NCBI GenBank assembly: GCA_006212015.1 | Contig: SDAY01000001.1 | Span: 49,068-113,067 of the forward strand | Reading direction: 5' to 3' | Length of the DNA: 64,000 nucleotides | Origin: Halothiobacillaceae bacterium | Lineage (GTDB): Bacteria > Pseudomonadota > Gammaproteobacteria > Halothiobacillales > Halothiobacillaceae | Shown: positions 6,602 to 36,246 of the stretch, one piece after another | Layout of the letters: every line of letters begins with the position of its first letter | How positions within the stretch are numbered: position 1 is the first letter of the stretch | The notes under the pieces: generated by a model | Told to the model about the DNA's origin: nothing | Databases searched by the model: none | Seen by the model: only the letters and a program-made list of their open reading frames with translations | Made by a program: the position numbers and the translations under genes

Positions 6602-6672
6602 GCAGGGGGACAGTGCCCCTTGGCGACGCGACGTCATGCGGTTCGTGCGTGTGTGAAACGAGGGCACAGCGC

Positions 6673-14285: not shown

Positions 14286-15128
14286 ATGAACAGACGAACC
14301 ATGCTGAAGGGGCTTGTGCTGGCGGCGGGCATGCTGGCCGGGGGGGTGGCCAGTGGGTTGTCGTGGGCGGCCGATCCGTTCCTCATCGGGGTGGCGCCGC
14401 ACACCAGCGCCCGCGTGCTGATCGAGCAGTACCAGCCGCTGCGCCTGCATCTGGAACGCGCGCTCGGGCAGCCGGTGGCCATCGTCACCGCCCCCGACTT
14501 CACCGAATTCGCCCGCCGCGCGCTGCGCAGCGAGTACGACCTCGCCATCACCACCGGCCATCAGGCGCGCCTGCTGCAGACGGATGCGGGCGGCCTGCCG
14601 CTGCTGACCTACAAGGCGCCGTTCCTTGCCCTCGCCGTGGTCGCGGCCGGGGGGCCGGTCCATACGATGGATGACCTGCGCGGCAGGACCGTGCTCGGCC
14701 TGAGTCCCACCTCGCTGGTCACCCTGTGGGGGCTGCAGTGGCTGCAGGATGCCGGCCTGCGTGATGTCGCCGTGAACTACGTCAGCGCGGCCGACAGCGT
14801 GAGCCAGGTCATCCTCGCCGGGGAGGCCGCCGCCGGTTTCATCTCCCAGCCCAATTACGACAAGCTCTCCCCGGACGTGGCCCGGCGCCTGCGCATCCTC
14901 GAACGCAGCCGGCCGCTCGCGGGCCGCGTCTATGTGCTCGACAGGCGCCATGCCGCGCGGCGGGCGCAGGTCGAGGATGCCCTGTGGGGCTTCGCCGGGA
15001 CGCCCGAGGCGCGCGCCTATTTCGACCAGACCCAGCTCGGCGGCTACCGCCGGCTTGAGGCGGGAGAGCTCGAGCTCATGGAACCCTATGCCGCCCGCGT
15101 CCGGGCCACCCTGGAGGGCGTGAAGTAA
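14286..15128 (+). CDS. PhnD-like periplasmic substrate-binding protein
   Basis: A 280-residue exported binding protein of the phosphate/phosphonate (PhnD) type. The N-terminus MNRRTMLKGLVLAAG has a twin-arginine motif and a hydrophobic core ending at ..SWAAD. The mature part shows the family pattern IGVAPHTSARVLIEQYQPL, RSEYDLAITTGHQARL, DDLRGRTVLGLSPTSLVT and AGEAAAGFISQPNYDKL. No ABC permease or ATPase gene is adjacent. Instead its stop overlaps the start of a membrane GGDEF-EAL protein (TAATG). The likely role is ligand sensing for that protein rather than uptake; the ligand is unknown. Confidence 0.85.
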   Translation: MNRRTMLKGLVLAAGMLAGGVASGLSWAADPFLIGVAPHTSARVLIEQYQPLRLHLERALGQPVAIVTAPDFTEFARRALRSEYDLAITTGHQARLLQTDAGGLPLLTYKAPFLALAVVAAGGPVHTMDDLRGRTVLGLSPTSLVTLWGLQWLQDAGLRDVAVNYVSAADSVSQVILAGEAAAGFISQPNYDKLSPDVARRLRILERSRPLAGRVYVLDRRHAARRAQVEDALWGFAGTPEARAYFDQTQLGGYRRLEAGELELMEPYAARVRATLEGVK

Positions 15129-17545
15129 TGCCGGGATGGATCGGCCGGCGCGTGCGCGGCATGCGCGGTCGTCTGCTCCTGGCCGCCATCCTCGTCGAGG
15201 CGCTGATGCTCACCCTGCTGGTGGGCAACAGCCTGCGCCTGCTGCAGGGCAGCCTGGACGAGCAGGCGCGCCTGCAGGCAAGCCAGCTCGCGCCCGTGCT
15301 GAACGCGGCGCTGGTCGCACCCATGGCGCAGTATGATTACGCGACCGTGCAGGCCATCCTCGAAGAGGTCGTGGCCGTGCGGGGCATCGACTACCTCGCC
15401 GTGCAGGACGCCTCCGGCAAGCTGATCGGCATCAGCGGCTGGGAGCGAGGCCGGCCCCTGCCGCCCGCCGACGAGACGCTGTCATCCTCCCTCAATGACG
15501 ACATCCTGCCCCGCCACGATGTCATTCGCCCCATTGCGCTTGCCGGGCAGACGCTCGGCACCATGCATTACGGGCTGGGCCTCGGCCATATCCTGATGGC
15601 GCGGGATCGGCAGCTCACCCAGGGCGTGGCCATCGCGCTCGGCGAGATCCTGCTCTCCGTCGCCCTGCTGGCCCTCATCGGTCTCCTGATGACGCGCCAT
15701 TTCGCCGAGCTGATCCGGGTCAGCGGCGAGGTGGCCCGGGGCAACTTCGCCTTCGCCCCCCTCGAGGAGGGGGATCACGACATCGGCCGATTGGGGCGGG
15801 CCTTCAACGCCATGGCGCACGCGGTGGATGAGCGCATCCGTGAGCTCGCGGGCCTGCGCGATGCGCTGCAGCGGGAGCGCGATCTCGCCCAGGTGACGCT
15901 GGCCTCCATCGGCGATGGCGTGGTCACCACCGACGCCGAAGGGCGCGTCACCTTCCTCAATGCGATGGCGGAGAAGCTCACCGGCTGGACGCAGGAGGAG
16001 GCAGCGGGGCAGCCGGTCACCGAGGTCGTCGCGCTGTCCGAGGAAGAGGGCGGCCGGTTACCGTCCCATCCCGTCCTTGAGTGCCTGCGGTCCGGCCATG
16101 GCGTCTCGCTCCAAGCGGATGTCGTGCTGGAGTCGCGCGATGGCCGGCGCACCCCGGTGGAGGACAAGGTCGCGCCCATCCTCGACCGCGGGGGTGTGGG
16201 GGTCGGCGCCGTCATGGTGTTTGCCGATGTCAGCGCCACGCGCGAGATCAGCCGCCTGATGGCCTGGCAGGCCAGTCATGACAGCCTGACCCGGCTGGTC
16301 AATCGAAACAGCTTCGAGCAGCACCTGAATCGCCTGCTCGACGAACCGGTCAAGGCCGGCCGCGAGCATGCCCTGCTCTACCTCGACCTGGACCAGTTCA
16401 AGATCGTCAACGACCTGTGCGGGCACACGGCGGGGGACCGGTTGCTGGTGCAGGTGACCTTCCTGATGCACGAGCAGATGCGCAAGAGTGACACCCTGGC
16501 GCGACTGGGCGGCGACGAGTTCGGCGTGCTGCTGCAGGATTGTCCCGAGGAGTGTGCGCTTCGGATCGCCGACGCCCTGCGGGTGGTCGTGCGCGACTTC
16601 CGCTTCGCGTGGGGCGACAAGGTCTTCGAGATCGGCGTCTCCATCGGCCTGGTGATGATCGGCCCCGAGGGGCGCAGCGCGGCCGAGCTGCTAAGCGCCG
16701 CCGATATGGCCTGCTACGCGGCCAAGGAGCAGGGGCGCGACCGCGTCCATGTCTATCGCGGCGAGGATGTGGAAACCATGTCCCGTCAGGCCGAGATGCA
16801 CGTCGCCGCGCGTCTGCGCGAGGCCCTGCGGGAGGACCGCTTCGTGCTGTACGCGCAGGAGATCCGTGCCCTGCGGGGGCACGGCCCGCACTACGAGGTG
16901 CTGGTGCGCATGCTGGACGAGCAGGGGAAGCCGCTCGCGCCCGCCCTGTTCATTCCCGCCGCCGAGCGCTACGGCCTGATGCCGCAGGTCGACCGCTGGG
17001 TGGTCCGCCATGCCCTGCGGCAGGCTGCCGCCTCCTGCGACGCGCACGGCCTCACCCTGGCCATCAATCTGTCGGGGCTGTCCCTGCTCGATCCGGCGAT
17101 GCCGGGCTACATCCGCGAGCAGCTGGCCGAGAGCGGCATGCGGCCCGAGTGCGTCTGCTTCGAGATCACCGAGACCGCCGCCATCGCCCACCTGGGCAAG
17201 GGCGTCGAGTTCATGCGCGAGTTCCGGGCGCTGGGCTGCCGTTTCTCGCTGGACGACTTCGGCAGCGGCATGGCCTCGTTCGGCTACCTCAAGGCCCTGC
17301 CGGTCGATTACCTGAAGATCGACGGCGCCTTCGTGCGTGACATCCTGACCGACCCCATCGACCGCGCCTTCGTCGAGTCCATCCATCACATCGGCAAGGT
17401 GATGGGCAAGATGACGATTGCCGAGTTTGCCGAAAACCAGGCCATCATTGACGAACTTGAGCGCATCGGCATCGACTATGTGCAGGGCTATGGCGTCGCC
17501 CGCCCGCGCCCGCTGGCCGAGGTGCTGGGCGGCCTGTCGGCCTGA
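15128..17545 (+). CDS. Membrane c-di-GMP cyclase/phosphodiesterase (HAMP-PAS-GGDEF-EAL)
   Basis: An 805-residue inner-membrane signalling protein. Order: TM helix (about 14-36), periplasmic domain (37-165), TM helix (about 167-190), HAMP (to about 243), PAS (about 250-370), GGDEF (about 375-540), EAL (about 555-800). The cyclase site GGDEF is intact at residues 461-465, and an RKSD I-site for product inhibition sits five residues before it. In the EAL domain the signature is EVL, with NLSG, FEITET, LDDFGSG, LKIDG and VQGYG preserved, so activity is plausible but not certain (AEFAEN replaces the usual AEGVE). It is translationally coupled to the PhnD-like gene, suggesting that the binding protein presents a ligand to its periplasmic domain. 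Confidence 0.95.
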   Translation: MPGWIGRRVRGMRGRLLLAAILVEALMLTLLVGNSLRLLQGSLDEQARLQASQLAPVLNAALVAPMAQYDYATVQAILEEVVAVRGIDYLAVQDASGKLIGISGWERGRPLPPADETLSSSLNDDILPRHDVIRPIALAGQTLGTMHYGLGLGHILMARDRQLTQGVAIALGEILLSVALLALIGLLMTRHFAELIRVSGEVARGNFAFAPLEEGDHDIGRLGRAFNAMAHAVDERIRELAGLRDALQRERDLAQVTLASIGDGVVTTDAEGRVTFLNAMAEKLTGWTQEEAAGQPVTEVVALSEEEGGRLPSHPVLECLRSGHGVSLQADVVLESRDGRRTPVEDKVAPILDRGGVGVGAVMVFADVSATREISRLMAWQASHDSLTRLVNRNSFEQHLNRLLDEPVKAGREHALLYLDLDQFKIVNDLCGHTAGDRLLVQVTFLMHEQMRKSDTLARLGGDEFGVLLQDCPEECALRIADALRVVVRDFRFAWGDKVFEIGVSIGLVMIGPEGRSAAELLSAADMACYAAKEQGRDRVHVYRGEDVETMSRQAEMHVAARLREALREDRFVLYAQEIRALRGHGPHYEVLVRMLDEQGKPLAPALFIPAAERYGLMPQVDRWVVRHALRQAAASCDAHGLTLAINLSGLSLLDPAMPGYIREQLAESGMRPECVCFEITETAAIAHLGKGVEFMREFRALGCRFSLDDFGSGMASFGYLKALPVDYLKIDGAFVRDILTDPIDRAFVESIHHIGKVMGKMTIAEFAENQAIIDELERIGIDYVQGYGVARPRPLAEVLGGLSA

Positions 17546-21953: not shown

Positions 21954-23228
21954 TTACTTGGCCAGACGCTCGATGCCGATGGCCTTCATGATGTACTTCT
22001 CGTACAGCGGCTCGGAGGTGCCGGACTTCATCTTGCGGATGAAGTACTTCTCGAACGCGATCTTGGCCAGATGCACCCACTTGCCCTTGGCGAACCAGTT
22101 GACGTTGCGCGGCGGGATCTGCGGCAGGGCGACGAACACGGCGCCGCGGTCGCCCATGTCGGCCAGGCAGATGGCCTGCCAGGTGCCCTTGTGGGTCGGT
22201 TCCTCGCCGTTCAGTTCCTGCTTGATGTTGTGCACGATGGCGGTGACCATGGACTCGATCATGTAGCCGGTCTTGGGCGCGCCGACCGGGACCGGGGTGA
22301 CCTCGACCGGCGGGATGGCGACGCAGACGCCGGCGGAGTAGATGTTCGGGTATTTCGGGTTGCGCTGCTTGTCGTCGATGAAGACGAAGCCGCCCGGGTT
22401 GACCATGCCATCCACGGCGGCGACCGCGTCCACGCCGCGGAACGGCGGCAGCATCATGGAATGGTTGAAGGCCAGTTCGTGGGTCTTGACCACGTTGCCC
22501 TGCATGTCCAGTTCCTCGACGTGCATCTTGCCGGCCTCGACCTTGGTGGTGCGGGCGTTGCAGATCCACTTGATGTCGTGCATGCGCAGCTCGGATTCGA
22601 GCATGCCCTTGGAGTCGCCCACGCCGCCGAGGCCGAGGTGGCCGATGTACGGCTCGGCGGTCACGAAGGTCATCGGCACCTTGTTGCGGATCTTCTTCTT
22701 GCGCAGGGCGGCGTCGAGGATGAAGACATACTCATAGGCCGGGCCGTAGCAGCTCGCGCCCTGGAAGGCGCCGACGATGACCGGGCCGGGGTTGTCGCAC
22801 AGCTTCTGGAAGTCCTGGTAGGCCAGCTCGGCGTGGTCCACGGTGCATACGGAATGGGTATGGCCGCCATGCGGGCCGGCGCCCTCGATGGCACCGAAGT
22901 TCAGCTTCGGGCCGGTGGTGATGATCAGGTAGTCATAGCTGACGGTCTGGCCATCGCTCAGGTGCAGGGTATTGGCCCCGGGTTCCAGCTTGGTCACGGT
23001 CGCGTGGATGAAGTCGATGCCCTTGCGCTTGAGGTAGGGCTCGATCGGGAAGGTGATCTCGTCACGGGTGCGCCAGCCCACGGCCACCCAGGGGTTGGAA
23101 GGGGTGAACTGGAAATAGTCGGTCGCGTTGATCGCGGTGATCTTGTGGTCCTTGCCCAGCAGTTCGCGGGCCTCATAGGCTGCCGGCATGCCGCCGATGC
23201 CTGCGCCGAGAATGACGATGTGCGCCAT
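21954..23228 (-). CDS. sqr: Sulfide:quinone oxidoreductase
   Basis: Peripheral membrane flavoprotein that oxidises sulfide to polysulfide/sulfur and passes electrons to quinone. The 424-residue product has the FAD motif ILGAGIGGMPAAYEARE at the N-terminus and cysteines at residues 128 (SVCTVDHAE), 160 (GASCYGPAYEY) and 354 (AICLADMGDRG). These correspond to the three catalytic cysteines of the structurally known Acidithiobacillus ferrooxidans enzyme, which it resembles throughout (DYFQFTPSNPWVAVGW, AEPYIGHLGLGGVGDSKGML, PPVEVTPVPVGAPKTGYMIESM). The C-terminal amphipathic region (FAKGKWVHLAKIAFEKYF) fits membrane anchoring. GGAGGC lies eight bases before the ATG. Confidence 0.96.
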   Translation of the reverse strand: MAHIVILGAGIGGMPAAYEARELLGKDHKITAINATDYFQFTPSNPWVAVGWRTRDEITFPIEPYLKRKGIDFIHATVTKLEPGANTLHLSDGQTVSYDYLIITTGPKLNFGAIEGAGPHGGHTHSVCTVDHAELAYQDFQKLCDNPGPVIVGAFQGASCYGPAYEYVFILDAALRKKKIRNKVPMTFVTAEPYIGHLGLGGVGDSKGMLESELRMHDIKWICNARTTKVEAGKMHVEELDMQGNVVKTHELAFNHSMMLPPFRGVDAVAAVDGMVNPGGFVFIDDKQRNPKYPNIYSAGVCVAIPPVEVTPVPVGAPKTGYMIESMVTAIVHNIKQELNGEEPTHKGTWQAICLADMGDRGAVFVALPQIPPRNVNWFAKGKWVHLAKIAFEKYFIRKMKSGTSEPLYEKYIMKAIGIERLAK

Positions 23229-24513: not shown

Positions 24514-25518
24514 TCACGCCTTGCCATCGGCCTCGCGGCCGGTCCCTGCAGCTTGGCTGCCAAGGGCATGCTGGGCCGCGCCGAACAGGGCCATCTGCAG
24601 GCCGAACACGATGGTGGCCAGCATCAGGTGCAACGGCTGCAGGACGGCGGGGAAGCCCAGGGTCGCCAGCGACAGCCCGATCATCAGTTCGATCGCGACG
24701 ATCGCCATCATCGCTTTTGCCAGGCGCTGGGCGAGGGCGTTGTCGTCCTGGCGGAGCACGCGCAGGCCGAGCCAGAGGTTGTAGCCCACGATCATGAAGG
24801 CCCCCAGCACATGGATGGTGAGGGGGGAGCCCACCTGCGCGATCCAGCTGGCACGGTCAGCATAGTCCAGCGACAGGGAGATGATGTCGATACGCTCGCG
24901 CACCTGCACGCCCAGGGCGATCTGGACGATGGTCAGCACCATGCCGACGATCAGCCAGGCGCGCGTGGCCAGCGCGCCCTGCAGGCTCATGCGCAGGGTG
25001 TCGCGCAGTGAGTGGTTGATCGCCAGCACCAGGCTTGCGACCACGAGCAGGGAGGCGACCATGTGGGTGGTGATCATGGCCGGGTGCAGGTTGCTGCTGA
25101 CCACGACCTTGCCCAGCCAGCCATTGAAGCCGACCAGCACGAAGGCGGCGAGGGCGTACCAGAACACCGGCCCGTTGGTCGCCCGGTCATCGCGGCGGAT
25201 GCGCCAGGCGGCCCACAGGGTCCACATCGACAGGAAGCCGATGGTCACGCCGGTCAGGCGGTTGAAGAACTCGGTCCAGGTCTTGACCGCGTTGAACTCG
25301 ACATCGGCATAGCCGCGATCGCGGTAGATCTCCTGGTAGTTCTCGGGCAGCTGCGATACATCGGTGGGCGGGATGAGCTGGCCGAAGCAGGTGGGCCAGT
25401 CCGGGCAGCCCATGCCCGCGCCGGTGGCGCGCACCGAACTGCCGACGGCGATGAGGATGTAGACCGCGGCGATGGTGATCAGGGCGATGCGGACAAAGTG
25501 GCGATGACGGTCATTCAT
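24514..25518 (-). CDS. ctaA: Haem A synthase CtaA/Cox15
   Basis: Integral membrane enzyme that oxidises the C8 methyl of haem O to a formyl group, giving haem A for cytochrome oxidase. The 334-residue product has about eight membrane helices, the N-terminal SSVRATGAGMGCPDWPTCFGQLIPP (type 2 signature with two cysteines), ARG-like FFNRLTGVTIGF, and the haem-ligand histidines in TTHMVASLLVV and PLTIHVLGAFM. It starts within the end of the PepSY gene (8-base overlap), indicating coupling. Product needed by the ba3-like oxidase encoded on the opposite strand. Confidence 0.95.
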   Translation of the reverse strand: MNDRHRHFVRIALITIAAVYILIAVGSSVRATGAGMGCPDWPTCFGQLIPPTDVSQLPENYQEIYRDRGYADVEFNAVKTWTEFFNRLTGVTIGFLSMWTLWAAWRIRRDDRATNGPVFWYALAAFVLVGFNGWLGKVVVSSNLHPAMITTHMVASLLVVASLVLAINHSLRDTLRMSLQGALATRAWLIVGMVLTIVQIALGVQVRERIDIISLSLDYADRASWIAQVGSPLTIHVLGAFMIVGYNLWLGLRVLRQDDNALAQRLAKAMMAIVAIELMIGLSLATLGFPAVLQPLHLMLATIVFGLQMALFGAAQHALGSQAAGTGREADGKA

Positions 25519-26497
25519 GATGTGCTTGCTTCAAACGTGCTTTTCGGCTGGCGATTCCGCCGAGGATGAGGATGGGAACGGCGAGGCTGGCCATGACCCA
25601 CAGGAGACGGCCGGGCATGCCCAGCAGTTCACCGGTGTGAAGGTTGTACAGCACTTCACCTTTGGCTGGCGTTGAGTCGGCGTCGCTGGTCAAAAGGCCC
25701 GAGTCGCGCTGCCATGTGAGGCGGCGGGTTCCAAGCGTGCCTGCGTGATTCGGCGTGTCGCACACAAGACTCAGGCGCTCGGCATCGAGCGCGGTGATCC
25801 ATCGCGGTGCATGGGTGGGATGGGTTTTCTGCAGCGCTTCCAGGGCATCCTGCGCGGAATGAAGCGTGATGGCCTCGGCTGGGGCCGTGATGGCCATCCT
25901 GGGTGTGCTGCCATAACCGGGTTGCCAGGCAAGAAAGACCAGACCCGACGCGGCGATCAGCAGAAGGATGGGGGCCGTCGTGAGGCCCAGCAGCGGGTGG
26001 ATGCGTGCCGCCACCCCGCGCGCCATGGCCCTGCTGCGCAGCAGCAACCCGCTCAGGGTGGTTACAAGCAGGCCGATGGCGGCGATCCTGGCCAGCCAGC
26101 GGCCGGTGTCATCGAGCAACAGGGCGGTGTGCAGGGTGTAGGCAAAGGCGAAATAACCGTCGTCAATGGCTCGCTGGCCCCGGATCTCGCCGGAGCGCGG
26201 GTGAATGAAGACCTCGTGACGCAGCCCTTCGCGGTCGACCATCAGCAGCAGCGCGGCGTCGACGGGAGTTGCGGCGGGTGCCAGGCCAATGATCCGGCGA
26301 TCAGGAAAGGCTCGACGCGCTGCATCGATCCATGCATCAGCCGATAGCGGGGGCGCGGAGGACATCGGCGCGCCGAGCAGGTCGACATTGAACATGCGAT
26401 CGCTTTCGCGCGCGAAGCCAAGCATGGCGCCGCTCAGGCTGGCCAGGATCAGCGGGATGGCGAACAGGAAGGCCAGCCACCCATGCAGCGTGCGCAT
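25511..26497 (-). CDS. PepSY-associated membrane protein
   Basis: A 328-residue inner-membrane protein of the PepSY_TM type. It opens with RTLHGWLAFLFAIPLILASLSGAMLGF (first helix, with the conserved His-Trp), then a periplasmic domain with a PepSY-like segment (RHEVFIHPRSGEIRGQ, about residues 92-107), two more helices around 130-190, a second periplasmic part with VLYNLHTGELLGMPGRLLWV, and a final helix. Related proteins accompany haem and metal enzymes and are often annotated as iron- or siderophore-linked. Its place between haem O and haem A synthase genes suggests a role in haem handling or oxidase assembly; this is inference. Confidence 0.8.
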   Translation of the reverse strand: MRTLHGWLAFLFAIPLILASLSGAMLGFARESDRMFNVDLLGAPMSSAPPLSADAWIDAARRAFPDRRIIGLAPAATPVDAALLLMVDREGLRHEVFIHPRSGEIRGQRAIDDGYFAFAYTLHTALLLDDTGRWLARIAAIGLLVTTLSGLLLRSRAMARGVAARIHPLLGLTTAPILLLIAASGLVFLAWQPGYGSTPRMAITAPAEAITLHSAQDALEALQKTHPTHAPRWITALDAERLSLVCDTPNHAGTLGTRRLTWQRDSGLLTSDADSTPAKGEVLYNLHTGELLGMPGRLLWVMASLAVPILILGGIASRKARLKQAHHE

Positions 26498-26512: not shown

Positions 26513-27403
26513 TTAACGAATGTAGTGATCGACGAGCAGGGCGCTGAACAGGAGCACGAGATAGAGGATCGAATAGCCGAAGGTGGGCATGGCGAGCTTG
26601 TGTTCCGGGTCATGGTACAGGCGCCAGGCATACACCACATAGATCGCGCTGAGAATGGTTGCACTGGCCAGGTAGATCAGGCCGCTCATGCCCACGGTGG
26701 TCGGCAGGATGCTTACGGCCGCAAGCACCATCGTGTAGAGCAGGATCTGATACTTGGTGTGGGGGATGCCTTTCACCACGGGCAGCATCGGAATGCCGGC
26801 GCGCCGGTACTCCTCCACGCGGCGAATGGCCAGCGGCCAGAAATGGGGCGGGGTCCACAGGAAAATGATGAGGAACAGGATCAACCCTTCGATGGTGACC
26901 TGGCCGGTCATGGCAGTCCAGCCGAGCAGGGGGGGCGCCGCGCCCGCTGCACCGCCCCAGACGATGTTCTGCGGCGTGTTGTGCTTGAGATACACGGTGT
27001 AGATCACCGCATAGCCGATCAGGGCAAGGAAGGTCAGCACGGCGGTCAATACATTGACCTGCCAGACCAGGATGCCCATCGAGAGCGCCGCCCATGAAAG
27101 GGCGACGATCAGCACCTCACGGCTGTTCACGCGGCTGGTCGGAAGCGGGCGGCCATGGGTGCGATCCATCAAGGCGTCGTAGCGCTCGTCCAGCAGGTGA
27201 TTGATGGCGGCCCCGGCCGCCGAAGCCAGGGCAATGCCCATCAGGGCAAAGAGCATGCGCTCCCCATCCAGGGTTCCCGGAGGCGTGGCCAGCAGCATGC
27301 CGACGAGGGCGGTGAACACGATCAGGCCGACGACCTTGGGTTTGGCCAGCTCGTAGATCGATCGAATCTTTTCAGGTAGGGGCAGGGCGGCGGCTTGGCT
27401 CAC
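26513..27403 (-). CDS. ctaB: Protohaem IX farnesyltransferase (haem O synthase)
   Basis: Adds a farnesyl group to haem B, giving haem O, the precursor of haem A. The 296-residue product is a UbiA-type prenyltransferase with about nine helices and both aspartate-rich motifs: NHLLDERYDALMDRTHGRPLP (N/DxxxD) and the second near YTVYLKHNTPQNIVWGGAAGAAPPLLGW. The start codon is GTG (MSQAAALPLPEK), preceded by GGGAG; no better ATG lies in frame. It is the first gene of the minus-strand ctaB-pepSY-ctaA unit, divergent from the fcc-oxidase operon. Confidence 0.95.
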   Translation of the reverse strand: MSQAAALPLPEKIRSIYELAKPKVVGLIVFTALVGMLLATPPGTLDGERMLFALMGIALASAAGAAINHLLDERYDALMDRTHGRPLPTSRVNSREVLIVALSWAALSMGILVWQVNVLTAVLTFLALIGYAVIYTVYLKHNTPQNIVWGGAAGAAPPLLGWTAMTGQVTIEGLILFLIIFLWTPPHFWPLAIRRVEEYRRAGIPMLPVVKGIPHTKYQILLYTMVLAAVSILPTTVGMSGLIYLASATILSAIYVVYAWRLYHDPEHKLAMPTFGYSILYLVLLFSALLVDHYIR

Positions 27404-27708
27404 GTGTTCTCATCTCCCGCATGGATGCCTGTTCTTTGGCATGACACCAAATGGTATATCGTTTTTTATATTGTGATAAAAAAACATGCAAGTGAAATCA
27501 TGCTCCATGCACTTGCCTGTAGCGCGAGAAAAGCGAAACGGTGCGCTGCAAGGCGCAAAGTTGATCGCTTTACTTGGTTGTAATGCTCGATAGAGTCAAC
27601 TTATAGTGTGTCAAATGCCACACATCCAGATGGGATGTCGGGGTATGCGGTTTTAACTCCCCATGCCACAGGTCTGGGGTTAAGTCGTTGCTGAGGAGAG
27701 TCGATGAG
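27404..27708. promoter_or_regulatory. Divergent control region between ctaB and fccA
   Basis: A 305-base AT-rich spacer, low in GC compared with its neighbours. It contains a T/A-rich tract near 27455-27487 and a GTGTG..CACAC inverted repeat around 27606-27625. For the plus strand the best promoter match is TTGTAA (27578-27583) and TATAGT (27602-27607), 18 bases apart. For the minus strand a TTGACA (27614-27609) has only a poor -10 partner. No gene is seen in it; the short frames are not protein-like. Confidence 0.5.
27578..27607 (+). promoter_or_regulatory. Candidate sigma-70 promoter of the fcc-oxidase operon
   Basis: TTGTAA (27578-27583) as -35 and TATAGT (27602-27607, five of six consensus bases) as -10 with an 18-base spacer, about 100 bases before fccA. 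Found by eye only. Confidence 0.4.
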
Positions 27709-28017
27709 ATGACCAAGCGAATCCTGGTGATGGGAATCGCCCTGGCTGGAGTGATGTCGGCGTCCGCCGTCTTCGCCGAGCCGAGTGGTGAGATGTTGGC
27801 GCAGACCTGCGCGGGCTGTCATGGCACGCAGGGGAAGCTGACGGGGGCCTCGGCGTTCATGCCGCTGGCGGGGATGAAGGAGGCGACCTTCGTGAAGACC
27901 ATGAAGGACTTCGCCTCGGGCGCGCGCCCGAACACCCTGATGGGTCCGATCGCGAAGGGCTTCACCGAGAGTGAATTCCAGTCGATGGCCGCGTACTTCG
28001 TCAAGCAGCCGAAGTAA
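27709..28017 (+). CDS. fccA: Monohaem cytochrome c, flavocytochrome c sulfide dehydrogenase subunit
   Basis: Small periplasmic cytochrome c of 102 residues. Sec signal peptide MTKRILVMGIALAGVMSASA..FA, then one haem site CAGCH at residues 34-38 and likely methionine ligand in the ARPNTLMGP segment. ATG 27709 has GAGGAGA nine bases upstream. It lies 6 bases before fccB, whose flavoprotein needs a cytochrome partner, so it most likely takes electrons from sulfide oxidation and hands them on. Many FccA proteins are dihaem; this one is the short monohaem form. Confidence 0.9.
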   Translation: MTKRILVMGIALAGVMSASAVFAEPSGEMLAQTCAGCHGTQGKLTGASAFMPLAGMKEATFVKTMKDFASGARPNTLMGPIAKGFTESEFQSMAAYFVKQPK

Positions 28018-28023
28018 GGAGAG

Positions 28024-29415
28024 ATGAAGACCATGAATAATCCCGTGAACGCGATCAATCGCCGCCACTTCCTCAAGCTGCTCGGCGCCTCCGCGCTGGC
28101 CGGCGCCGGCCTGTCGGGCAAGAGCGCCTTCGCCGGCGCCCAGCCGCATGTGGTCGTGATCGGCGGCGGCGTGGGTGGCGCGACCTTCGCCAAGTACCTG
28201 AAGCTGTACGACAAGAGCGTCAAGGTCACCATCATCGAGCGCAACCGCCAGTACCTGCGTCCGTACGGCTCGTCCGAAGTGATCGTCGGCAACGCCACGA
28301 TGAAGGACCTCACCGTGTCCTACGATGCCCTGCAGAAGAACTACGGCATCGACTTTGTCTTTGACACCGTCACCGGCATCGACTTCGACGGCAAGACCGT
28401 CAAGACCGCGGGTGGTCAAAGCCTCGGTTATGACCGCCTGGTCATCTCCCCGGGCATCAGCTTCAACTTTGAAGCCATCGAAGGCCTGACCCAGGAAGTC
28501 TCCGACACCCTCATGCCGCATGCCTGGGATCCGGGCGCACAGACCGAGTTGCTGGCCAAGCAGCTCAAGGCCCTGCCCAAGGGCGGCACCGTGGTCCTCG
28601 GCGTGCCGCAGAACCCGTACCGCTGCCCGCCGGGCCCGTACGAGCGCGCCGGTCTGATTACCCAGTACCTCAAGGAACACAACCCGACCGCCAAGGTCGT
28701 CATCCTCGATGCCAAGAATGGCTTCACCACCGACGTCACCATGCTGCAGGCCTGGAACCGCCTGTACGACTTCAACGTCCCGGAGCAGTTCAAGGGCTTC
28801 GAGAAGTTTGGCGGTCGTGAGAAGGCCGGTCTCGTCAAGCATGACAAGCCGGGCAACCTGCAGTGGGTGATGGGCGAGATGGGCGGCCGCGTGGTCAAGG
28901 TCGATCCCGCCACCAAGACCGTCTACGCCGAAGGCGAGACCGTCAAGGCCGACATGATCAACATCATCCCGCCGCTCAGGGCCGGCCAGCTGGCCATTGA
29001 CGTCGGCCTGACCGACAGCACCGGCTGGTGCCCGGTTGACCGCGTCACCTTCGAGTCCACCCTGCACAAGAACGTGCATGTGATCGGCGACAGCTGCATC
29101 GCGGACGACATGCCCAAGTCCGGCTACAGCGCCAACAGCCAGGCCAAGGTCGTGGCCCTGCAGGTCAAGGCCCTGCTGGCCGGCCAGGCGCCGGGCGAGC
29201 CGGTGTTCCAGAACACCTGCTATGCCCTGGCGGGTCACCCGGACTATGGCCAGTTCGTGGCCGACGTGTTCCGCGTGCAGGACGGCAAGATCAAGCGCAC
29301 CGACAACCCGCGCTACCTGCCGGTGGACCTGAAGGCGACGGACAAGCGCTATGCACTCTCCGCGCTGTACACCCATGCGTGGATGAAGACCTTCACCGAC
29401 GATTGCTTCGCGTAA
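28024..29415 (+). CDS. fccB: Sulfide dehydrogenase flavoprotein subunit (FCSD)
   Basis: FAD-containing periplasmic subunit that oxidises sulfide to sulfur and reduces FccA. The 463-residue product has a twin-arginine signal (NRRHFLKLLGASALAGAG), an FAD motif VVVIGGGVGGATFAKYLK, SPGISFNFEAIEG, a redox cysteine in NPYRCPPGPYERAGLI and another in FQNTCYALAGHPDYG, and the C-terminal FCSD flavin-binding domain (about 390-463). Tat export of the folded flavoprotein with the Sec-exported cytochrome is normal for the family. It is followed directly by oxidase genes in the same orientation, giving a direct route from sulfide to oxygen. Confidence 0.96.
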   Translation: MKTMNNPVNAINRRHFLKLLGASALAGAGLSGKSAFAGAQPHVVVIGGGVGGATFAKYLKLYDKSVKVTIIERNRQYLRPYGSSEVIVGNATMKDLTVSYDALQKNYGIDFVFDTVTGIDFDGKTVKTAGGQSLGYDRLVISPGISFNFEAIEGLTQEVSDTLMPHAWDPGAQTELLAKQLKALPKGGTVVLGVPQNPYRCPPGPYERAGLITQYLKEHNPTAKVVILDAKNGFTTDVTMLQAWNRLYDFNVPEQFKGFEKFGGREKAGLVKHDKPGNLQWVMGEMGGRVVKVDPATKTVYAEGETVKADMINIIPPLRAGQLAIDVGLTDSTGWCPVDRVTFESTLHKNVHVIGDSCIADDMPKSGYSANSQAKVVALQVKALLAGQAPGEPVFQNTCYALAGHPDYGQFVADVFRVQDGKIKRTDNPRYLPVDLKATDKRYALSALYTHAWMKTFTDDCFA

Positions 29416-29445
29416 TCGGACCCACAACTTTAGGAGAAAGTCATC

Positions 29446-29586
29446 ATGACTCCGGAAGAAGAGAAAAAGGTTCTCGCAAGCTCGCCCGTCGGTACCTGGG
29501 TCGTCATGGCGACCTACGGCGTGATTTTTGTCGTGACCTGGCTGGCGATGTACGGCCTGTTCCTCAGTCGCGGCCCGGTTCATTAA
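29446..29586 (+). CDS. Small single-helix oxidase subunit IIa
   Basis: A 46-residue gene, MTPEEEKKVLASSPVGTW.. to ..LSRGPVH, with one membrane helix (about residues 18-40; VVMATYGVIFVVTWLAMYGL). AGGAGAAAG lies just upstream of ATG 29446, and the gene sits between fccB and the CuA subunit with 14 bases to the latter. In Thermus-type ba3 oxidases a protein of this size (subunit IIa, CbaD-like) occupies the same place. It probably supplies the extra helix that subunit II of B-type oxidases lacks. Confidence 0.85.
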   Translation: MTPEEEKKVLASSPVGTWVVMATYGVIFVVTWLAMYGLFLSRGPVH

Positions 29587-29600
29587 GGGGGAGTTGAACA

Positions 29601-30095
29601 ATGGCAACGATTCATATCGATCCGCTGGAAAAACGCTGGATCTGGATGGTTGGCGGCATGGTCGTCATCTTCTACGCCGTACAGATCTACTACGCAGCCG
29701 TGCATAACCTGCATCCGCCCAGCAACGTTGAGGTCATCGACTCCGCCAAGCTGCACCTGAGCGAGGAGTTCGCCGAAGACAAGCTGGGCGTGAAGCAGGA
29801 GGCCGATGGCTCCTACACCGTGACCATGGTCGCGGCGCGCTACGGCTTCTATCCGCAAGAGATCAGTGTTCCCGCGAACACCCCCATCAAACTGCGGATT
29901 GCGAGCTTTGATGTGCTGCATGGCGTGCATGTCCCGTTCAGCAACATGAACACCATGGTCGTCCCGGGTTATGTGTCCGAAGTGCACACCCAGTTCGTCA
30001 AGGAAGGCGACTTCCCGATGATCTGTAACGAATACTGCGGCCTGGGTCACGATTACATGTACTCCAAGCTGCATGTGACCGGCGCCAAGTCCTGA
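29601..30095 (+). CDS. cbaB: Cytochrome ba3-type oxidase subunit II (CuA)
   Basis: A 164-residue subunit with one N-terminal membrane helix (about 12-32) and a periplasmic cupredoxin domain. The CuA ligands are complete: a histidine in DVLHGVHVPFS and the C-terminal CNEYCGLGHDYM (C-x3-C-x3-H-x2-M). It accepts electrons from cytochrome c. Having a single helix, unlike the two-helix aa3 subunit II, places it with B-type ba3 enzymes, in agreement with the preceding IIa gene. The next gene, 17 bases on, is the catalytic subunit. Confidence 0.94.
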   Translation: MATIHIDPLEKRWIWMVGGMVVIFYAVQIYYAAVHNLHPPSNVEVIDSAKLHLSEEFAEDKLGVKQEADGSYTVTMVAARYGFYPQEISVPANTPIKLRIASFDVLHGVHVPFSNMNTMVVPGYVSEVHTQFVKEGDFPMICNEYCGLGHDYMYSKLHVTGAKS

Positions 30096-30112
30096 TCGAG
30101 GAGCATTGAAGA

Positions 30113-31792
30113 ATGAGTATTACTGCAGAACAAGCCGCAGGTCTTGCCGCCAAATCCCGAAGCGGGGTGACGGAGGTTGAGGCCTATGGCAACAAACTTG
30201 GCCTGTGGAGCATGTGGGTGGCCTTCGCCGCCCTGGCCCTCGGTCTGCCGATGGGGCTTTTCCAGGCCGCGGAGCGCAGCGGGTTCTTCCCGGGCATCGA
30301 GAACACGGCGGTCTATTTCGCCTCGACATCGACCCATGGCGTGCTGCTGGCCTTCGTGCTGACCACCTTCTTCGCGATGGGCTGGGGTCACCACACCCTA
30401 GCGCACGTCCTGAAGAAGAAGCCGTTCTTCGGCTGGACCAGCTTCTGGGTCGCCCTGACGGGCACCGTCATCGCAGCCGTTCCGCTGCTGACCGGCTATG
30501 CCTCCGTGCTGTACACCTTCTACCCGCCCGAGATGGGGCACCCGGCCTTCTATCTGGGCGCGACCCTGCTGGTGGTCGGTTCCTGGTTCTGGGTGGCCGA
30601 CATGATCATCGGCATGACCCAGTGGAGAAAGGAAAACCCGGGCAAGCCGGTTCCCTTGGTCGCGTTCATGCATGTCATGACCGCGCTGCTGTGGGGCTGG
30701 ACCAGCATGGGCGTGGCCTCCGAGGCCGTGTTCCAGCTGCTGCCGATGGCCTTCGGCATCTCCGCGACCATCGACCCCGGCCTGGCGCGTACCCTGTTCT
30801 CCTGGACCCTGCACGCCATCGTGTACTTCTGGCTGATGCCGGCGTACATCGCCATGTACATGATCGTGTCGAAGGAGGCGGGCGGCAAGCTGTTCTCCGA
30901 TGAGTTCGCGCGCATCGCCTTTGTCATGCTGTTCATCTTCTCCGTGCCCATCGGCTTCCATCACCTGTATGTGGACCCGATGCAGGCCGCGGGCTGGAAG
31001 CTGCTGCACATGTTCGGCACCATCATGGTGGCCGTGCCGACCTTCCTGACCGGCTTCACCGTGCTGGCCTCGATGGAGATCGCCGGTCGCCTGCGCGGCG
31101 GCAAGGGCCTGTTCGGCTGGATCGGCGCGCTCGACTGGGGCAACCCCTTGGTGCTGGCCGGCGGCCTGTCCCTGCTGATGCTGACCGCGGGCGGTTGGGG
31201 CGGCGTATTGAACGCGGCCTATACCTGGGACGTGATGGTGCACAACACCCAGTGGATCACCGGTCACTTCCACCTGATCTTCGGCGGCACCACGGTGATC
31301 ATGTATCTGGCGGCGGCCTACTGGCTGTGGCCAAGGATCACCGGCAATGCGCTGTTCTCGCGCAAGCTCGCAGTGACCCAGCTGTGGCTGTACTTCATCG
31401 GCATGGTCACCCTGACCGCGCCCTGGCATGTGCTGGGCCTCGTCGGCCAGCCGCGTCGCGTGTCCTCGACCCCGTATGACGCCTTCCCGGAGCTGGTGGC
31501 ATCCTGGAGCGTGTACGAGGCCCTGATGATCGTGGGTGGCGTCATCCTCGTGATCTCCGGTTTCATGTTCATCTACAACCTGCTCATGACCCACTTCAAC
31601 AAGGTTCCGGCGGCGGATACCAAGGTCGAGTACGCCGTGGCCATCCATGAGCCGATGCGCGTGCCGAACATCCTCAACAGCCTGAGCTTCTGGAACTGGG
31701 CGATGCTGGCCTACATGATCGTCAGCTACGGCTATCCGATCCTGCAGTTCGCCTTCATCGGCACGCCTGGCAGCATTCGTTGGGGGACCTGA
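30113..31792 (+). CDS. cbaA: Cytochrome ba3-type oxidase subunit I
   Basis: Catalytic haem-copper subunit that reduces oxygen to water and pumps protons. The 559-residue product has about 13 helices. Visible ligands: the low-spin haem histidine in STSTHGVLLAF, the CuB His-Tyr pair in TLHAIVYFWLMPAYIAMY, the two CuB histidines in GFHHLYVDP, and the haem histidines in ITGHFHLIFGG. The YFWLMP context and the absence of the A-type glutamate motif fit the B family. It needs haem A from CtaA/CtaB and copper from the downstream CcoI/Sco/PCuAC proteins. Confidence 0.95.
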   Translation: MSITAEQAAGLAAKSRSGVTEVEAYGNKLGLWSMWVAFAALALGLPMGLFQAAERSGFFPGIENTAVYFASTSTHGVLLAFVLTTFFAMGWGHHTLAHVLKKKPFFGWTSFWVALTGTVIAAVPLLTGYASVLYTFYPPEMGHPAFYLGATLLVVGSWFWVADMIIGMTQWRKENPGKPVPLVAFMHVMTALLWGWTSMGVASEAVFQLLPMAFGISATIDPGLARTLFSWTLHAIVYFWLMPAYIAMYMIVSKEAGGKLFSDEFARIAFVMLFIFSVPIGFHHLYVDPMQAAGWKLLHMFGTIMVAVPTFLTGFTVLASMEIAGRLRGGKGLFGWIGALDWGNPLVLAGGLSLLMLTAGGWGGVLNAAYTWDVMVHNTQWITGHFHLIFGGTTVIMYLAAAYWLWPRITGNALFSRKLAVTQLWLYFIGMVTLTAPWHVLGLVGQPRRVSSTPYDAFPELVASWSVYEALMIVGGVILVISGFMFIYNLLMTHFNKVPAADTKVEYAVAIHEPMRVPNILNSLSFWNWAMLAYMIVSYGYPILQFAFIGTPGSIRWGT

Positions 31793-31795
31793 TTC

Positions 31796-32533
31796 ATGAA
31801 GGCCAATAACATGGAAAACAAGATCGTATTGAGCGTGGCGGCGCTTGCCGCCGCCCTGATGATGTCCCCGGTCATGGCGGCCGAGCATGCGGCCATGGCG
31901 ACCAAGGGTCCGTCCACCAACGTCAGCTGGACCGCCGAGCAGATGCGCTTTGTCGCCAACGGCGACAAGAACCGCGGCGGGCAACTGAACAGCGAGATGT
32001 TCTGCGCCTCCTGCCACGGTGACGCGGGCGTTGCCCCGACGGGCAACTGGCCTTCGCTGGCCGGCCAGCGCGCCGAGTACACCTTCAAGATGTTGAAGGA
32101 CTACAAGGACGGCAAGCGTCACGGCAGTCATTCGGCCGAGATCATGCAGAAGGTCACCCAGGGCATGAGCGACCAGGACATGGCCGACCTGGGTCAGTTC
32201 TACGCGAGCTTCGACCTGCCGGCCCTGCCGACCGGCGTGACCTTTGATGCGGCGCAGGCCGACATGTCGAAGGCCGTCATCAAGCGTGGCGATGGCAAGC
32301 GCCTGGTCGCGCCCTGCCAGTCCTGCCATGGCTCGAACGGCGAGGGCGCCGTGACGGATACCCCGGCGCTGGCCGGCATGCCGCCGGAGTACTTCATCAA
32401 GACCATGCAGGAGTACAAGTCCGGCGCGCGCGCCAACGATGTCTACTCGCGCATGCGCCTGATCGCGAAGACCCTGACGGATGACGAGATCAGCCAGATG
32501 GCGCATTACTACGCGGGCATGACCGCCAAGTAA
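31796..32533 (+). CDS. Dihaem cytochrome c4-like protein
   Basis: A 245-residue exported cytochrome with a Sec signal (..AALMMSPVMAAE) and two cytochrome c domains with haem sites CASCH and CQSCH, each followed by a methionine ligand region (SAEIMQKVTQGM and VYSRMRLIAKTL). The tandem layout fits cytochrome c4, a donor to terminal oxidases. It starts 3 bases after the oxidase subunit I stop and is the last gene before a strong terminator. ATG 31796 or 31811 are both possible starts. It could link FccA or a bc1 complex with the ba3 oxidase. Confidence 0.93.
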   Translation: MKANNMENKIVLSVAALAAALMMSPVMAAEHAAMATKGPSTNVSWTAEQMRFVANGDKNRGGQLNSEMFCASCHGDAGVAPTGNWPSLAGQRAEYTFKMLKDYKDGKRHGSHSAEIMQKVTQGMSDQDMADLGQFYASFDLPALPTGVTFDAAQADMSKAVIKRGDGKRLVAPCQSCHGSNGEGAVTDTPALAGMPPEYFIKTMQEYKSGARANDVYSRMRLIAKTLTDDEISQMAHYYAGMTAK

Positions 32534-32559
32534 TCCGCTTTTTCGGTTCGTTTCTCCGG

Positions 32560-32595
32560 GGCCCTGCAAACGTCGTTTGCGGGGCCTTTTTTTTT
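32560..32595 (+). terminator. Strong Rho-independent terminator of the fcc-oxidase operon
   Basis: A 13-bp stem, GGCCCTGCAAACG (32560-32572) with CGTTTGCGGGGCC (32574-32586; one G.T-type mismatch), followed by nine T (32587-32595). It lies 26 bases after the cytochrome c stop. Confidence 0.95.
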
Positions 32596-32611: not shown

Positions 32612-35071
32612 ATGGAAATACAAAAGTGTTATCACTGCGGGCTCGATGTCCCCAAGGGCATGGACCTTCGCTATGTCGTCCTTGGCGAGGAGCGCGCCTT
32701 TTGTTGCGCCGGTTGCCACGCGGCCTGCAAGACCATCGTCGATGCCGGCTTCGAGGACTTTTACAAGTTCCGTGAGCAGGAGGGCGAGATCAATGCCCAG
32801 GTGCTGCCCGATGTGCTCAAGAACCTGACCCTCTACGACCGACCCGAGATCCAGCAGGGCTTCGTGCGTGGCGATGGGGAGTGCCTCGAGGCTGCGCTGA
32901 TCCTGGAAAACATCCGTTGCGCCGCCTGCATGTGGCTCAACGAGCAGCATCTGCGCGCCCATCCCGGGGTGGTTGAGGTTCATCTGGATTACGCCAGCCA
33001 CCAGGCGCGGGTGAAGTGGGATCCCGCCGTCACCAAGCTGAGCGACATCCTGCAGACCATCGCCGCCATCGGCTACGTGGCCCACCCCTATGATCCGGCC
33101 CATCGCGAGCGCCTGCTCGAGGATGAACGTCGGCGCAGCATCGAGCGACTGCTGTTCTCCGGTCTGCTCGGCATGCAGGTCATGATGTTCGCCACCGCGA
33201 CCTACTGGATGGGCGGCTTCAACGAGGCGGGACAGCTCGAGTTGTGGGAGAAGATCGGGCGATGGACCGCCCTGCTCATCACCTCGATCATGCTGGTCTA
33301 TTCCGGGGCCGATTTCTTTGTCGGCGCATGGCGCGACCTGAAGAACAGGCGCCTGGGCATGGATGTGCCGGTGGTCCTTGGCCTGACGACGGCCTGGGGC
33401 GGCAGCCTGTGGGCGACCATCGTCGGCGACGAGGATGTCTATTTCGACTCCATCGGCATGTTCATCTTCTTCGTCCTGCTGTCCCGCGTGGTTGAACTCA
33501 AGGGGCGCATGGCGGCGGCCGATGCGCTGGATCATTTGCTCAAGGTCATTCCGCGCACGGCCTGCCGGGTTCAGGATGGGGAGGACGTGGTGGTTCCCGT
33601 GCTCGACCTGCAGGCGGGGGATGTCCTGCGTCTGTTGCCGGGAGACAGCGTGCCTGTCGATGGAAAACTGCTGAGCCCCTTCGGCAATTTCGATGAGTCG
33701 CATCTGACGGGTGAGTCGATTGCCGTGCCGCACCATGAAGGCGACTGGATCGCCGCCGGCAGCTGCACTATCGACCAATCGGTGCTCATGCGTGTTGAGC
33801 GGGTCAGCGCCGATTCCACCATGAACGAACTCCAGCGTCTGATGGACCGGGGGCTGTCGGAAAAGCCGAAACTGGCCATATTGGCGGAGCGCATCTCGGC
33901 GCCGTTTGTCGTCGTGACGCTCATCCTTGCGGTGCTTACGGCACTGGTCTGGTGGCTGATCGATCCGCATCGGGCCCTGCCCAATACCATTTCGGTGCTG
34001 ATCATCACCTGTCCCTGCGCCCTGGCCCTGGCCACGCCCGTGGCGCTCGCCATCGCGGCGGGCCGATTCGCATCGATGGGGATCCTGCCGATGCGCATGG
34101 CGGCGGTGGAGGCGCTGGCCACGGCCGACACGCTGGTGCTGGACAAGACCGGGACCTTGACTCGCGGGCGGCCCAGGCTTATGGCGTTGCGCATGCTGGG
34201 CGGCATGGACGAGGGGGTTGCGCGCGCGCTGGTGGCGCGTCTGGAGATGCACTCCGAGCATCCCATCGCCCATGCCCTGCGCGAGGGCGTGAAGCCGCTT
34301 GAGGCCGATCTTGAGGTGCGCAATCTTCCGGGGCAGGGGCTGGAGGCCGATCATGGTGGCGCGCTCTGGCGCGTGGGGACGCCGGAGTTCGCCCTGCAAG
34401 GCGGTTCGCTGCCCGAGCAGGATGGCCGCTGGTTCCAGGCCCAGGTCGAGGATGGCGCCATCGTGGTGGCCCTGAGTCGCGATGGCGAGGCGCGCGCCCT
34501 GTTCGTCATGCACGACGATCCCCGCGAGGGCGCGCATGAGTTCGTCCAGCAGGCACGGGAGATGGGCATGCGCCGCGTGGTCGTGCTCAGCGGCGACCAG
34601 CCCGCGGCGGTCGCCCATCTCGCGCGTCAACTGGGCATCGAGGAACACCATGGCGGGATGCGGCCCGAGGACAAGCTGGCCTGGATACAGCAGGCCCAGG
34701 CCGAAGGCGCGGTGGTGATGATGGCGGGGGATGGCATCAACGATGCGCCGACCCTTGCGGCGGCGCAGGTGTCGGTCTCCTTCGGTGCGGCGACCACGCT
34801 GGCCCAGTTGCACAGCGATTTCGTCCTGCTCGGCACCGATCTGCGCGTCATTTCGCGCGCCATCCGCATGGCCCGCCACACCCGATCCAACATCCACGTC
34901 AATCTTTACTGGGCGGCGGGCTACAACCTCATTGCCGTGCCGTTCGCGGCGCTGGGTTTCATCACGCCCTGGATCGCGGCCATCGGCATGTCGCTCAGCT
35001 CCCTGCTGGTGGTCGGCAATGCCCTGCGCCTGCGCCATGTGGCCTTGCCAAACGGCAAGCAAGGGGTATAA
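32612..35071 (+). CDS. ccoI: Copper-type P1B ATPase, CcoI/FixI-like
   Basis: Membrane pump of 819 residues that moves copper across the inner membrane for oxidase assembly. Order: N-terminal cysteine-rich domain (CYHCGLDVPKG, FCCAGCHAACK), HMA-type domain with CAAC, six to eight helices, actuator motif LTGES, the ion-site CPC in ITCPCALALATP, phosphorylation motif DKTGTLTRG, HP in SEHPIAHAL, and hinge GDGINDAPTL. The N-terminal domain is typical of CcoI, usually beside cbb3 oxidase; here the partner is the ba3-like oxidase. No ribosome site is seen before ATG 32612, and a -10-like CATAAT (32598-32603) lies only 8 bases ahead. Confidence 0.93.
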   Translation: MEIQKCYHCGLDVPKGMDLRYVVLGEERAFCCAGCHAACKTIVDAGFEDFYKFREQEGEINAQVLPDVLKNLTLYDRPEIQQGFVRGDGECLEAALILENIRCAACMWLNEQHLRAHPGVVEVHLDYASHQARVKWDPAVTKLSDILQTIAAIGYVAHPYDPAHRERLLEDERRRSIERLLFSGLLGMQVMMFATATYWMGGFNEAGQLELWEKIGRWTALLITSIMLVYSGADFFVGAWRDLKNRRLGMDVPVVLGLTTAWGGSLWATIVGDEDVYFDSIGMFIFFVLLSRVVELKGRMAAADALDHLLKVIPRTACRVQDGEDVVVPVLDLQAGDVLRLLPGDSVPVDGKLLSPFGNFDESHLTGESIAVPHHEGDWIAAGSCTIDQSVLMRVERVSADSTMNELQRLMDRGLSEKPKLAILAERISAPFVVVTLILAVLTALVWWLIDPHRALPNTISVLIITCPCALALATPVALAIAAGRFASMGILPMRMAAVEALATADTLVLDKTGTLTRGRPRLMALRMLGGMDEGVARALVARLEMHSEHPIAHALREGVKPLEADLEVRNLPGQGLEADHGGALWRVGTPEFALQGGSLPEQDGRWFQAQVEDGAIVVALSRDGEARALFVMHDDPREGAHEFVQQAREMGMRRVVVLSGDQPAAVAHLARQLGIEEHHGGMRPEDKLAWIQQAQAEGAVVMMAGDGINDAPTLAAAQVSVSFGAATTLAQLHSDFVLLGTDLRVISRAIRMARHTRSNIHVNLYWAAGYNLIAVPFAALGFITPWIAAIGMSLSSLLVVGNALRLRHVALPNGKQGV

Positions 35072-35110
35072 ATTGCATTTATGTTTCATAGATCAGGTAA
35101 GGAAGGGTTG

Positions 35111-35773
35111 ATGAAGATGCGCATGAAAGGCGGCGCGCCGGTGGCCGTGGCGGTGTTTCTGGTGCTGATCGTCGCGCTGGCCATTTCGGTCTACCTGAAG
35201 ATCCAGCGGGTGAATGTCGACCTGACCCAAGTGGTGGATCAGTCGGTGTTGCGCATCGTGCCGCAGCCGATCCCCGTGCCCGATGCCAAGCTCACACGCA
35301 TGGACGGCAAGCCGTTCGGCAAGAAGGCCCTGGAAGGCAAGTGGACCTTCCTGTACTTCGGTTACACCCTGTGTCCCGATGTTTGCCCGACCGAGCTGAC
35401 CGCGCTGGCGGAGGTGGCCGATCTGCTGCGCCGCGAGGGCGTGCAGTCGAGGTGGCAGCAGGTGTTCGTGTCGGTCGATCCCGAGCGCGACACCCCCGAG
35501 CAGCTCGGCAGGTTCGTGAGTTATTTCGATCCTCAGATCATCGCCGCGACCGGCGAGCAGACCGAGCTGCGCATCATGGCCCAGCCGATCGGCGTGGGCT
35601 GGGAGAAGGCGGCCTTGCCGACGGCCAACGATGCCCCATCGAACTCCTATCTGGTCAATCACACGACCTCGATCCTGCTGGTCAGTCCCGATGCCACGGT
35701 CGTGGGCGTCTATCCGACGCCGCACAACCCCGAGGCCATGGTCAAGGCCTATCTGGCCGTCACCCGCGAATGA
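35111..35773 (+). CDS. Sco/SenC copper chaperone
   Basis: Thioredoxin-fold copper protein that metallates the CuA centre of oxidase subunit II. The 220-residue product has an N-terminal membrane anchor (AVAVFLVLIVALAISVYL), the copper site CPDVCP in YFGYTLCPDVCPTELTAL, and the histidine ligand in YLVNHTTSILLV. ATG 35111 has AGGAAGG just upstream and removes the poor N-terminus of the longer frame from 35081. The stop overlaps the next reading frame. Confidence 0.94.
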   Translation: MKMRMKGGAPVAVAVFLVLIVALAISVYLKIQRVNVDLTQVVDQSVLRIVPQPIPVPDAKLTRMDGKPFGKKALEGKWTFLYFGYTLCPDVCPTELTALAEVADLLRREGVQSRWQQVFVSVDPERDTPEQLGRFVSYFDPQIIAATGEQTELRIMAQPIGVGWEKAALPTANDAPSNSYLVNHTTSILLVSPDATVVGVYPTPHNPEAMVKAYLAVTRE

Positions 35774-35784
35774 GGTACATCTCC

Positions 35785-36246
35785 ATGCGTAACATTCTGA
35801 ATGCCGCCGCCCTCGCGCTTTTCCTGCCGCTGGCCGCGCAGGCCGAGGTCAAGGTCGTCGAACCCTGGATCCCCGAGGCCCCGCCCAATGCACAGGCCAT
35901 GGGCGCCTTCATGGTGCTGGAGAACGACGAGGACCGCGAAGTCAGGGTCGTTAATGCCCATGCGCCGGGTTTCGACACCATCGAGTTGCACAAGTCGGTG
36001 GAAGAGAAGGGCATGCACAAGATGCTCAAGCAGGATGCGCTGGTCATCCCGGCCATGGGGAGCCTTGAGCTCAAGCCGGGCAGCTACCATGTCATGCTGA
36101 TCGGCGTGCAGGAGCCGCGTCCGAAGGCCGGCGATGTCATTCCTGTTCGCCTTGATCTCGAAGGCGGCACGTCGATCACCGTGCAAGTACCGGTCAGGAA
36201 GCGCGCCGACATGATGAAGCGCATGCAGCAGATGCAGGGGCATTGA
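35785..36246 (+). CDS. Periplasmic copper chaperone PCuAC
   Basis: Encodes 153 residues with a Sec signal peptide (MRNILNAAALALFLPLAAQA) and the PCuAC/DUF461 fold: VVEPWIPEAPPNAQAMGAFMVLEN, IELHKSVEEKGMHKM and LKPGSYHVMLIG. The H-x10-M and H-x-M ligands of the Cu(I) site are present. C-terminal Met/His tail (MMKRMQQMQGH). It delivers copper to Sco or CuA. I chose ATG 35785 because GAGG lies nine bases upstream and the signal peptide then starts at once; ATG 35770 is possible. Last gene of the copper-supply set. Confidence 0.93.
   Translation: MRNILNAAALALFLPLAAQAEVKVVEPWIPEAPPNAQAMGAFMVLENDEDREVRVVNAHAPGFDTIELHKSVEEKGMHKMLKQDALVIPAMGSLELKPGSYHVMLIGVQEPRPKAGDVIPVRLDLEGGTSITVQVPVRKRADMMKRMQQMQGH

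Follow-up and report, generated by a model that had tools for sequence, protein, structure and literature searches.

FCSD oxidises sulfide and reduces cytochrome c, and its physiological partner has long been given vaguely as a soluble cytochrome c. Another FCSD, 5N1T, which we take to be the thiocyanate-linked enzyme of Thioalkalivibrio, has been recruited into a dedicated gene cluster. The solved enzymes of Allochromatium vinosum (1FCD) and Thermochromatium tepidum (3VRD) combine a FAD flavoprotein, with two redox-active cysteines, and a separate dihaem cytochrome subunit, FccA, encoded by an adjacent gene. Monohaem forms of FccA are known from Thiohalobacter, Guyparkeria and Thioalkalivibrio (PMC6504805). 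The coupling of a sulfide-oxidising flavoprotein to a ba3-type oxidase has also been described, for sulfide:quinone oxidoreductase (SQR), through a supercomplex in Aquifex and through co-induction in Methylacidiphilum (PMC10205796).

The window, a stretch of 64,000 nucleotides analysed here as a whole, comes from a 2.39-Mb assembly, 99% complete, of a family whose named members are Halothiobacillus-like. Six of its genes probably form an operon for a dedicated sulfide-respiring branch, in which electrons would pass from FccAB to cytochrome c4, to CuA and to a ba3-type oxidase. As in Aquifex and Methylacidiphilum, a sulfide-oxidising flavoprotein would be coupled to a ba3-type oxidase, but their entry enzyme is a quinone reductase. 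FCSD instead reduces cytochrome c, so that the electrons would by-pass both the quinone pool and bc1, and the link would be one operon. FCSD, the ba3 oxidase, cytochrome c4, the monohaem FccA and SQR-ba3 coupling are all known already; no description of an FCSD-c4-ba3 operon was found in the open-licence papers searched, and the combination is apparently new.

Composition and borders of the unit

The unit and its borders comprise the following features:

27578-27607, plus strand: promoter-like site TTGTAA-18-TATAGT, about 100 bases 5' of fccA, conserved with a congener (G025)
27709-28017, plus strand: fccA, monohaem cytochrome c subunit of FCSD, 102 aa, with a signal peptide and one CxxCH
28024-29415, plus strand: fccB, flavoprotein subunit of FCSD, 463 aa, with a Tat-like RR signal
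29446-29586, plus strand: small one-helix protein of 46 aa, putative oxidase subunit IIa, so named for its conserved position
29601-30095, plus strand: coxII, CuA subunit of the ba3-type oxidase, 164 aa, Pfam COX2, CuA motif CNEYCGLGHDYM
30113-31792, plus strand: coxI, B-type haem-copper oxidase subunit I, 559 aa, Pfam COX1
31796-32533, plus strand: dihaem cytochrome c4, 245 aa, with CASCH, CQSCH and two Cytochrom_C domains (Pfam)
32558-32588, plus strand: intrinsic terminator, a 14-pair stem with a T run after it

The six reading frames lie head to tail between 27709 and 32533, all on the plus strand, with gaps of 6, 30, 14, 17 and 3 bases and a GGAG-type ribosome site at most junctions. A consensus scan for promoters is by itself not above chance (one site found, 2.2 expected), and the promoter-like site is credited because it is conserved: at the matching place, G025 carries TTGTAT-17-TATAGT, and a GTCAAAT..CACA block common to both genomes follows. 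At the other end, no equally strong hairpin occurred in 200 dinucleotide shuffles of the region, and a terminator hairpin, changed in sequence, stands between c4 and the next gene in all four genomes of the genus (the window genome, G023, G024 and G025). The terminator scan found no terminator-like site on the plus strand within the unit. The conserved promoter-like site, the conserved terminator and the lack of an internal one make a single transcription unit a well-supported prediction. The sequence-only reading, which had described closely spaced genes with gaps of 3-30 bases, a single strong terminator at their end and one transcription unit, is borne out on the first two points and supported on the third.

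The FCSD of the unit

FccA is closest to the haem subunits of solved FCSDs, matching 3VRD_A and 1FCD_C, and its gene, as in A. vinosum and T. tepidum, adjoins that of the flavoprotein, here ending 6 bases before it. FccB is recognised by FCSD_central (127.7 bits) and FCSD-flav_bind (51.2 bits), both above the Pfam cut-offs; it matches 1FCD with an E value of 1e-105 and aligns along its length with the flavin subunits of both species. In the alignment with 1FCD, both redox-active cysteines are intact (RCPPGPYER and GWCPVD), as they are in every ba3-linked FccB examined. The enzyme differs from the two solved ones in its monohaem FccA (theirs is dihaem), in an insert in FccB and in the place of its genes within an oxidase operon; from 5N1T it differs in its partner and in the clade of its FccB.

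The insert, 20-37 aa in the central domain (about residues 250-277 of the window FccB), is shared by the FccBs of the same clade (clade 1) and is not found in FCSD of the A. vinosum type. It is possibly a docking loop and a marker of the clade.

The genome holds a second FCSD (L065:8176-9546, on contig C68 of the window genome, G000), in which the corresponding motif reads GWAPVN, the second redox-active Cys being replaced by Ala. Orthologues with GWAPVN occur in G022-G025 (L020, L021, L032, L035). A non-canonical FCSD without the disulfide is hence an accurate description of this second copy and was rejected for the operon FccB. As the operon enzyme keeps both cysteines and the second copy has lost one, the former would be the competent FCSD of the two, provided that sulfide oxidation depends on the disulfide.

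The oxidase and cytochrome c4

The best solved match of CoxI is the ba3 oxidase of Thermus (E 3e-113), followed by 7DEG_A, an oxidase subunit I (3e-78); all others match at 6e-16 or weaker. Its STHGV, HAIVY, GFHH and GHFHL motifs align with the haem and CuB His ligands and the cross-linked Tyr of the Thermus enzyme, and the CoxII motif CNEYCGLGHDYM and an upstream His align with its CuA. By subunit similarity and kept metal ligands, the oxidase is of the B-type (ba3), with its haem types predicted. Because the CuA, haem, CuB and Tyr positions are all kept, a cytochrome c oxidase and not a quinol oxidase is expected.

With the Thermus thermophilus enzyme (1EHK/1XME), the oxidase shares subunits I and II, the metal ligands, the position of the cross-linked Tyr and, putatively, a small IIa-like protein; its operon differs in starting with FCSD genes and ending with a cytochrome c4 gene. 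The best solved match of the dihaem cytochrome is a cytochrome c4, 6Q2U. Pfam and NCBIfam agree with the gene names first given from the sequence, except for the 46-aa IIa protein, which has no match in either, although its reading frame is conserved in place among relatives.

Neighbouring genes and other sulfide routes

On both sides of the unit lie genes for oxidase assembly, haem synthesis and sulfide oxidation:

21954-23228, minus strand: SQR, closest solved match E 2e-172, at the same locus in G025
24514-25518, minus strand: ctaA/COX15, haem A synthase
25511-26497, minus strand: PepSY_TM protein between ctaB and ctaA, its place conserved
26513-27403, minus strand: ctaB, haem O synthase, divergent from the operon
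32612-35071, plus strand: CcoI/CopA-like copper P-type ATPase for oxidase assembly, 3' of c4 in nearly all related clusters
35081-35773, plus strand: SCO1/SenC copper chaperone (family match)
35800-36246, plus strand: PCu(A)C copper chaperone

The SQR gene lies about 4.5 kb from the six-gene unit, beside the haem-synthesis genes. The ba3 locus is flanked by both sulfide-oxidising enzymes, SQR and FCSD, in the window and in G025.

The genome also encodes a bc1 complex (Rieske, cytochrome b and a probable c1 gene at C87) and, on the same contig as the unit, a cbb3 oxidase (ccoNOP with ccoG). A cell free of bc1 is therefore rejected, and the unit is one branch among several sulfide routes. The chain had been called bc1-independent, and this applies to the route, which would by-pass bc1, but not to the cell. 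With bc1, cbb3 and SQR present, bc1 inhibitors are expected to stop only part of the sulfide respiration.

Haem-copper oxidases are generally sulfide-sensitive, which speaks for a mainly protective unit: FccAB would remove sulfide near the oxidase, the respiration of oxygen from other donors would go on, and the energy gained from sulfide would be minor. The adjoining SQR can take the energy-yielding load via bc1, and in Methylacidiphilum the oxidase that withstands sulfide was proposed to be one of the ba3 type (PMC10205796). However, the electrons of FCSD must reach cytochrome c, and besides FccA the operon encodes no c-type cytochrome but c4, so that detoxification and respiration are hard to part; we consider a mainly protective role quite improbable.

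Elsewhere in the window, two tandem GH5 cellulases with CBM2 (4497-6392 and 6613-8400, plus strand) are found in a host that resembles a chemolithoautotrophic sulfur oxidiser. At 14286-17545 (plus strand), a phosphonate-type periplasmic binding protein is directly followed by a HAMP-PAS-GGDEF-EAL protein, possibly a sensor pair for cyclic-di-GMP control.

Recurrence in other genomes

The fccB gene stands directly 5' of coxIIa in all four genus genomes with this oxidase; the units of the window and G025 are whole, and those of G023 and G024 are cut by contig ends inside fccB. The window's order, fccA-fccB-IIa-II-I-c4-ATPase, is also present in G045, an unrelated genome of a single contig and the only member of its order among those compared. 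The sister genus (G014, G016, G019) differs: ctaB faces coxIIa directly, and fccAB lies at the far end, 3' of the ATPase and SCO genes. Compared with this layout, fccAB of the window occupies the promoter-proximal slot. In family f154 (G179, G289, G394), as well as in a Solemya gill symbiont, the oxidase genes are followed by c4, the ATPase and then fccAB. The comparison of synteny suggested by the sequence-only reading gives two results: the order is kept in the three congeners and G045, and fccAB is at the 3' end in the sister genus, f154 and the symbiont.

In many other ba3-c4 clusters of the class, FCSD is missing from the neighbourhood. Whether or not FCSD is present, c4 stays linked to the oxidase genes, which makes ba3-c4 the core and FCSD an addition to it; since most ba3-c4 clusters of the class do without FCSD, the oxidase does not need it. 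Outside the window's family, FCSD and ba3 genes lie within 10 kb of each other in two of the nine genomes holding both, against 0.17 expected (P ~0.011), a test that rests on these two positive genomes. The arrangement had been called not standard, which is fair for the species surveyed, where a minority of the genomes with a ba3 oxidase have FCSD at its cluster. It does recur, and a unique arrangement is rejected by the linkage in the congeners, G045, the sister genus, f154 and the Solemya symbiont.

Repeated recruitment and probable exchange of FCSD

The ba3-linked FccBs, a group defined by gene position before the tree was made, fall into separate clades: one of Halothiobacillaceae, one of the A. 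vinosum type (Solemya symbiont, G179) and one member near other canonical FCSDs (G045). A single clade of these proteins, and with it a single origin by descent or by one transfer, is rejected for FccB (p-AU 2e-9). In the CoxI tree, the FCSD-linked oxidases are found in three places. Both trees scatter the FCSD-linked members, and they imply that FCSD joined a ba3 cluster at least three separate times.

Within the genus, coxI of the window genome and of G025 is 84% identical, whereas the identity of fccB is only 53%. A sister relationship of the two FccBs is rejected (p-AU 7e-39, for a pair picked after the tree had been seen), and that of G025 groups with the FccB of G022. Probably, fccAB was exchanged in place and the slot kept, although differential loss after a duplication is possible as well. 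The same slot holding a different FCSD is the best evidence that FCSD is selected there.

The fccAB and ba3 gene sets each occur alone in other genomes, as a chance or passenger adjacency, functionally meaningless, would allow. Chance is at odds with the order conserved in the three congeners and G045, the repeated appearance of the linkage, in at least three lineages according to both trees, the kept slot with its exchanged FCSD and the conserved borders, and can be regarded as very improbable.

A parallel FCSD cluster in relatives

In relatives, fccAB of clade 1 is clustered with two polytopic proteins of ~490 and ~409 aa, mostly together with a cytochrome c4 (L057:760-3456, L059:5263-7977, L061:9906-12621, L064:4803-7560, L093:8396-11151, L094:420-3118). 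The same two-protein association is seen for fccAB of two other families (G172, G361), and across these clusters the genes occur in two different orders. The larger protein has a C-terminal haem-c motif and a faintly CydA-like N-terminus. Profile searches gave no usable PDB or Pfam match for either protein, and the similarity of the pair to E. coli CydA and CydB is weak. The module was not found in the window's genome. The two proteins may together make up a terminal complex, so far unrecognised, that receives electrons from FCSD.

FCSD and the oxidase of the unit could also be mere co-regulated neighbours, both needed under sulfidic, microoxic conditions, with the electrons of FCSD entering the general cytochrome c pool and going mostly to cbb3. 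The cbb3 genes are on the same contig and bc1 elsewhere in the genome, and fccAB of the sister genus and f154 comes only after the P-type ATPase gene, outside the oxidase operon. Against this, two lineages have fccAB inside the operon, directly 5' of the oxidase genes and upstream of c4, and clade-1 FCSD is repeatedly clustered with another c4. Simple co-regulation is hence judged unlikely.

Proposed sulfide-to-oxygen chain

The unit is real and selected; from its anatomy, we infer a dedicated branch with the following flow of electrons. Periplasmic FccAB, whose active-site residues are intact, would oxidise sulfide to sulfur or polysulfide at the FAD and the redox disulfide. Electrons would then pass from the FccA haem to the dihaem cytochrome c4, and from c4 via CuA of subunit II to the B-type oxidase and O2. 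The role of c4 as the adapter is suggested by its invariable position after the oxidase genes, in clusters that have FCSD and in those that lack it, and by the parallel cluster; alternatively, a soluble cytochrome encoded elsewhere could take the electrons of FccA. B-type oxidases pump protons. The route would run parallel to the SQR-quinone-bc1-cbb3 route of the same genome. The earlier claim that a complete chain from sulfide via cytochrome c to oxygen is encoded here agrees with the gene content and the repeated recruitment.

With FCSD right behind the oxidase promoter, the amount of oxidase would increase in step with the removal of sulfide, an advantage if the enzyme has to work in sulfidic water. 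Tentatively, and on balance doubtfully, FCSD, c4 and the ba3 oxidase may even form a physical sulfide:O2 oxidoreductase complex, FCSD being a plug-in electron-entry module that evolution has joined repeatedly to terminal membrane complexes supplied by c4 (ba3 here; in relatives, the two-protein membrane module with its haem-c domain).

The operon ties FCSD to a named cytochrome and a named oxidase, in an arrangement built more than once, and offers a specific chain, open to testing, that would lead from sulfide to oxygen and involve neither quinone nor bc1. The operon could also help to explain respiration at sulfide levels expected to poison oxidases, while a by-passing branch would lower the energy yield expected per sulfide.
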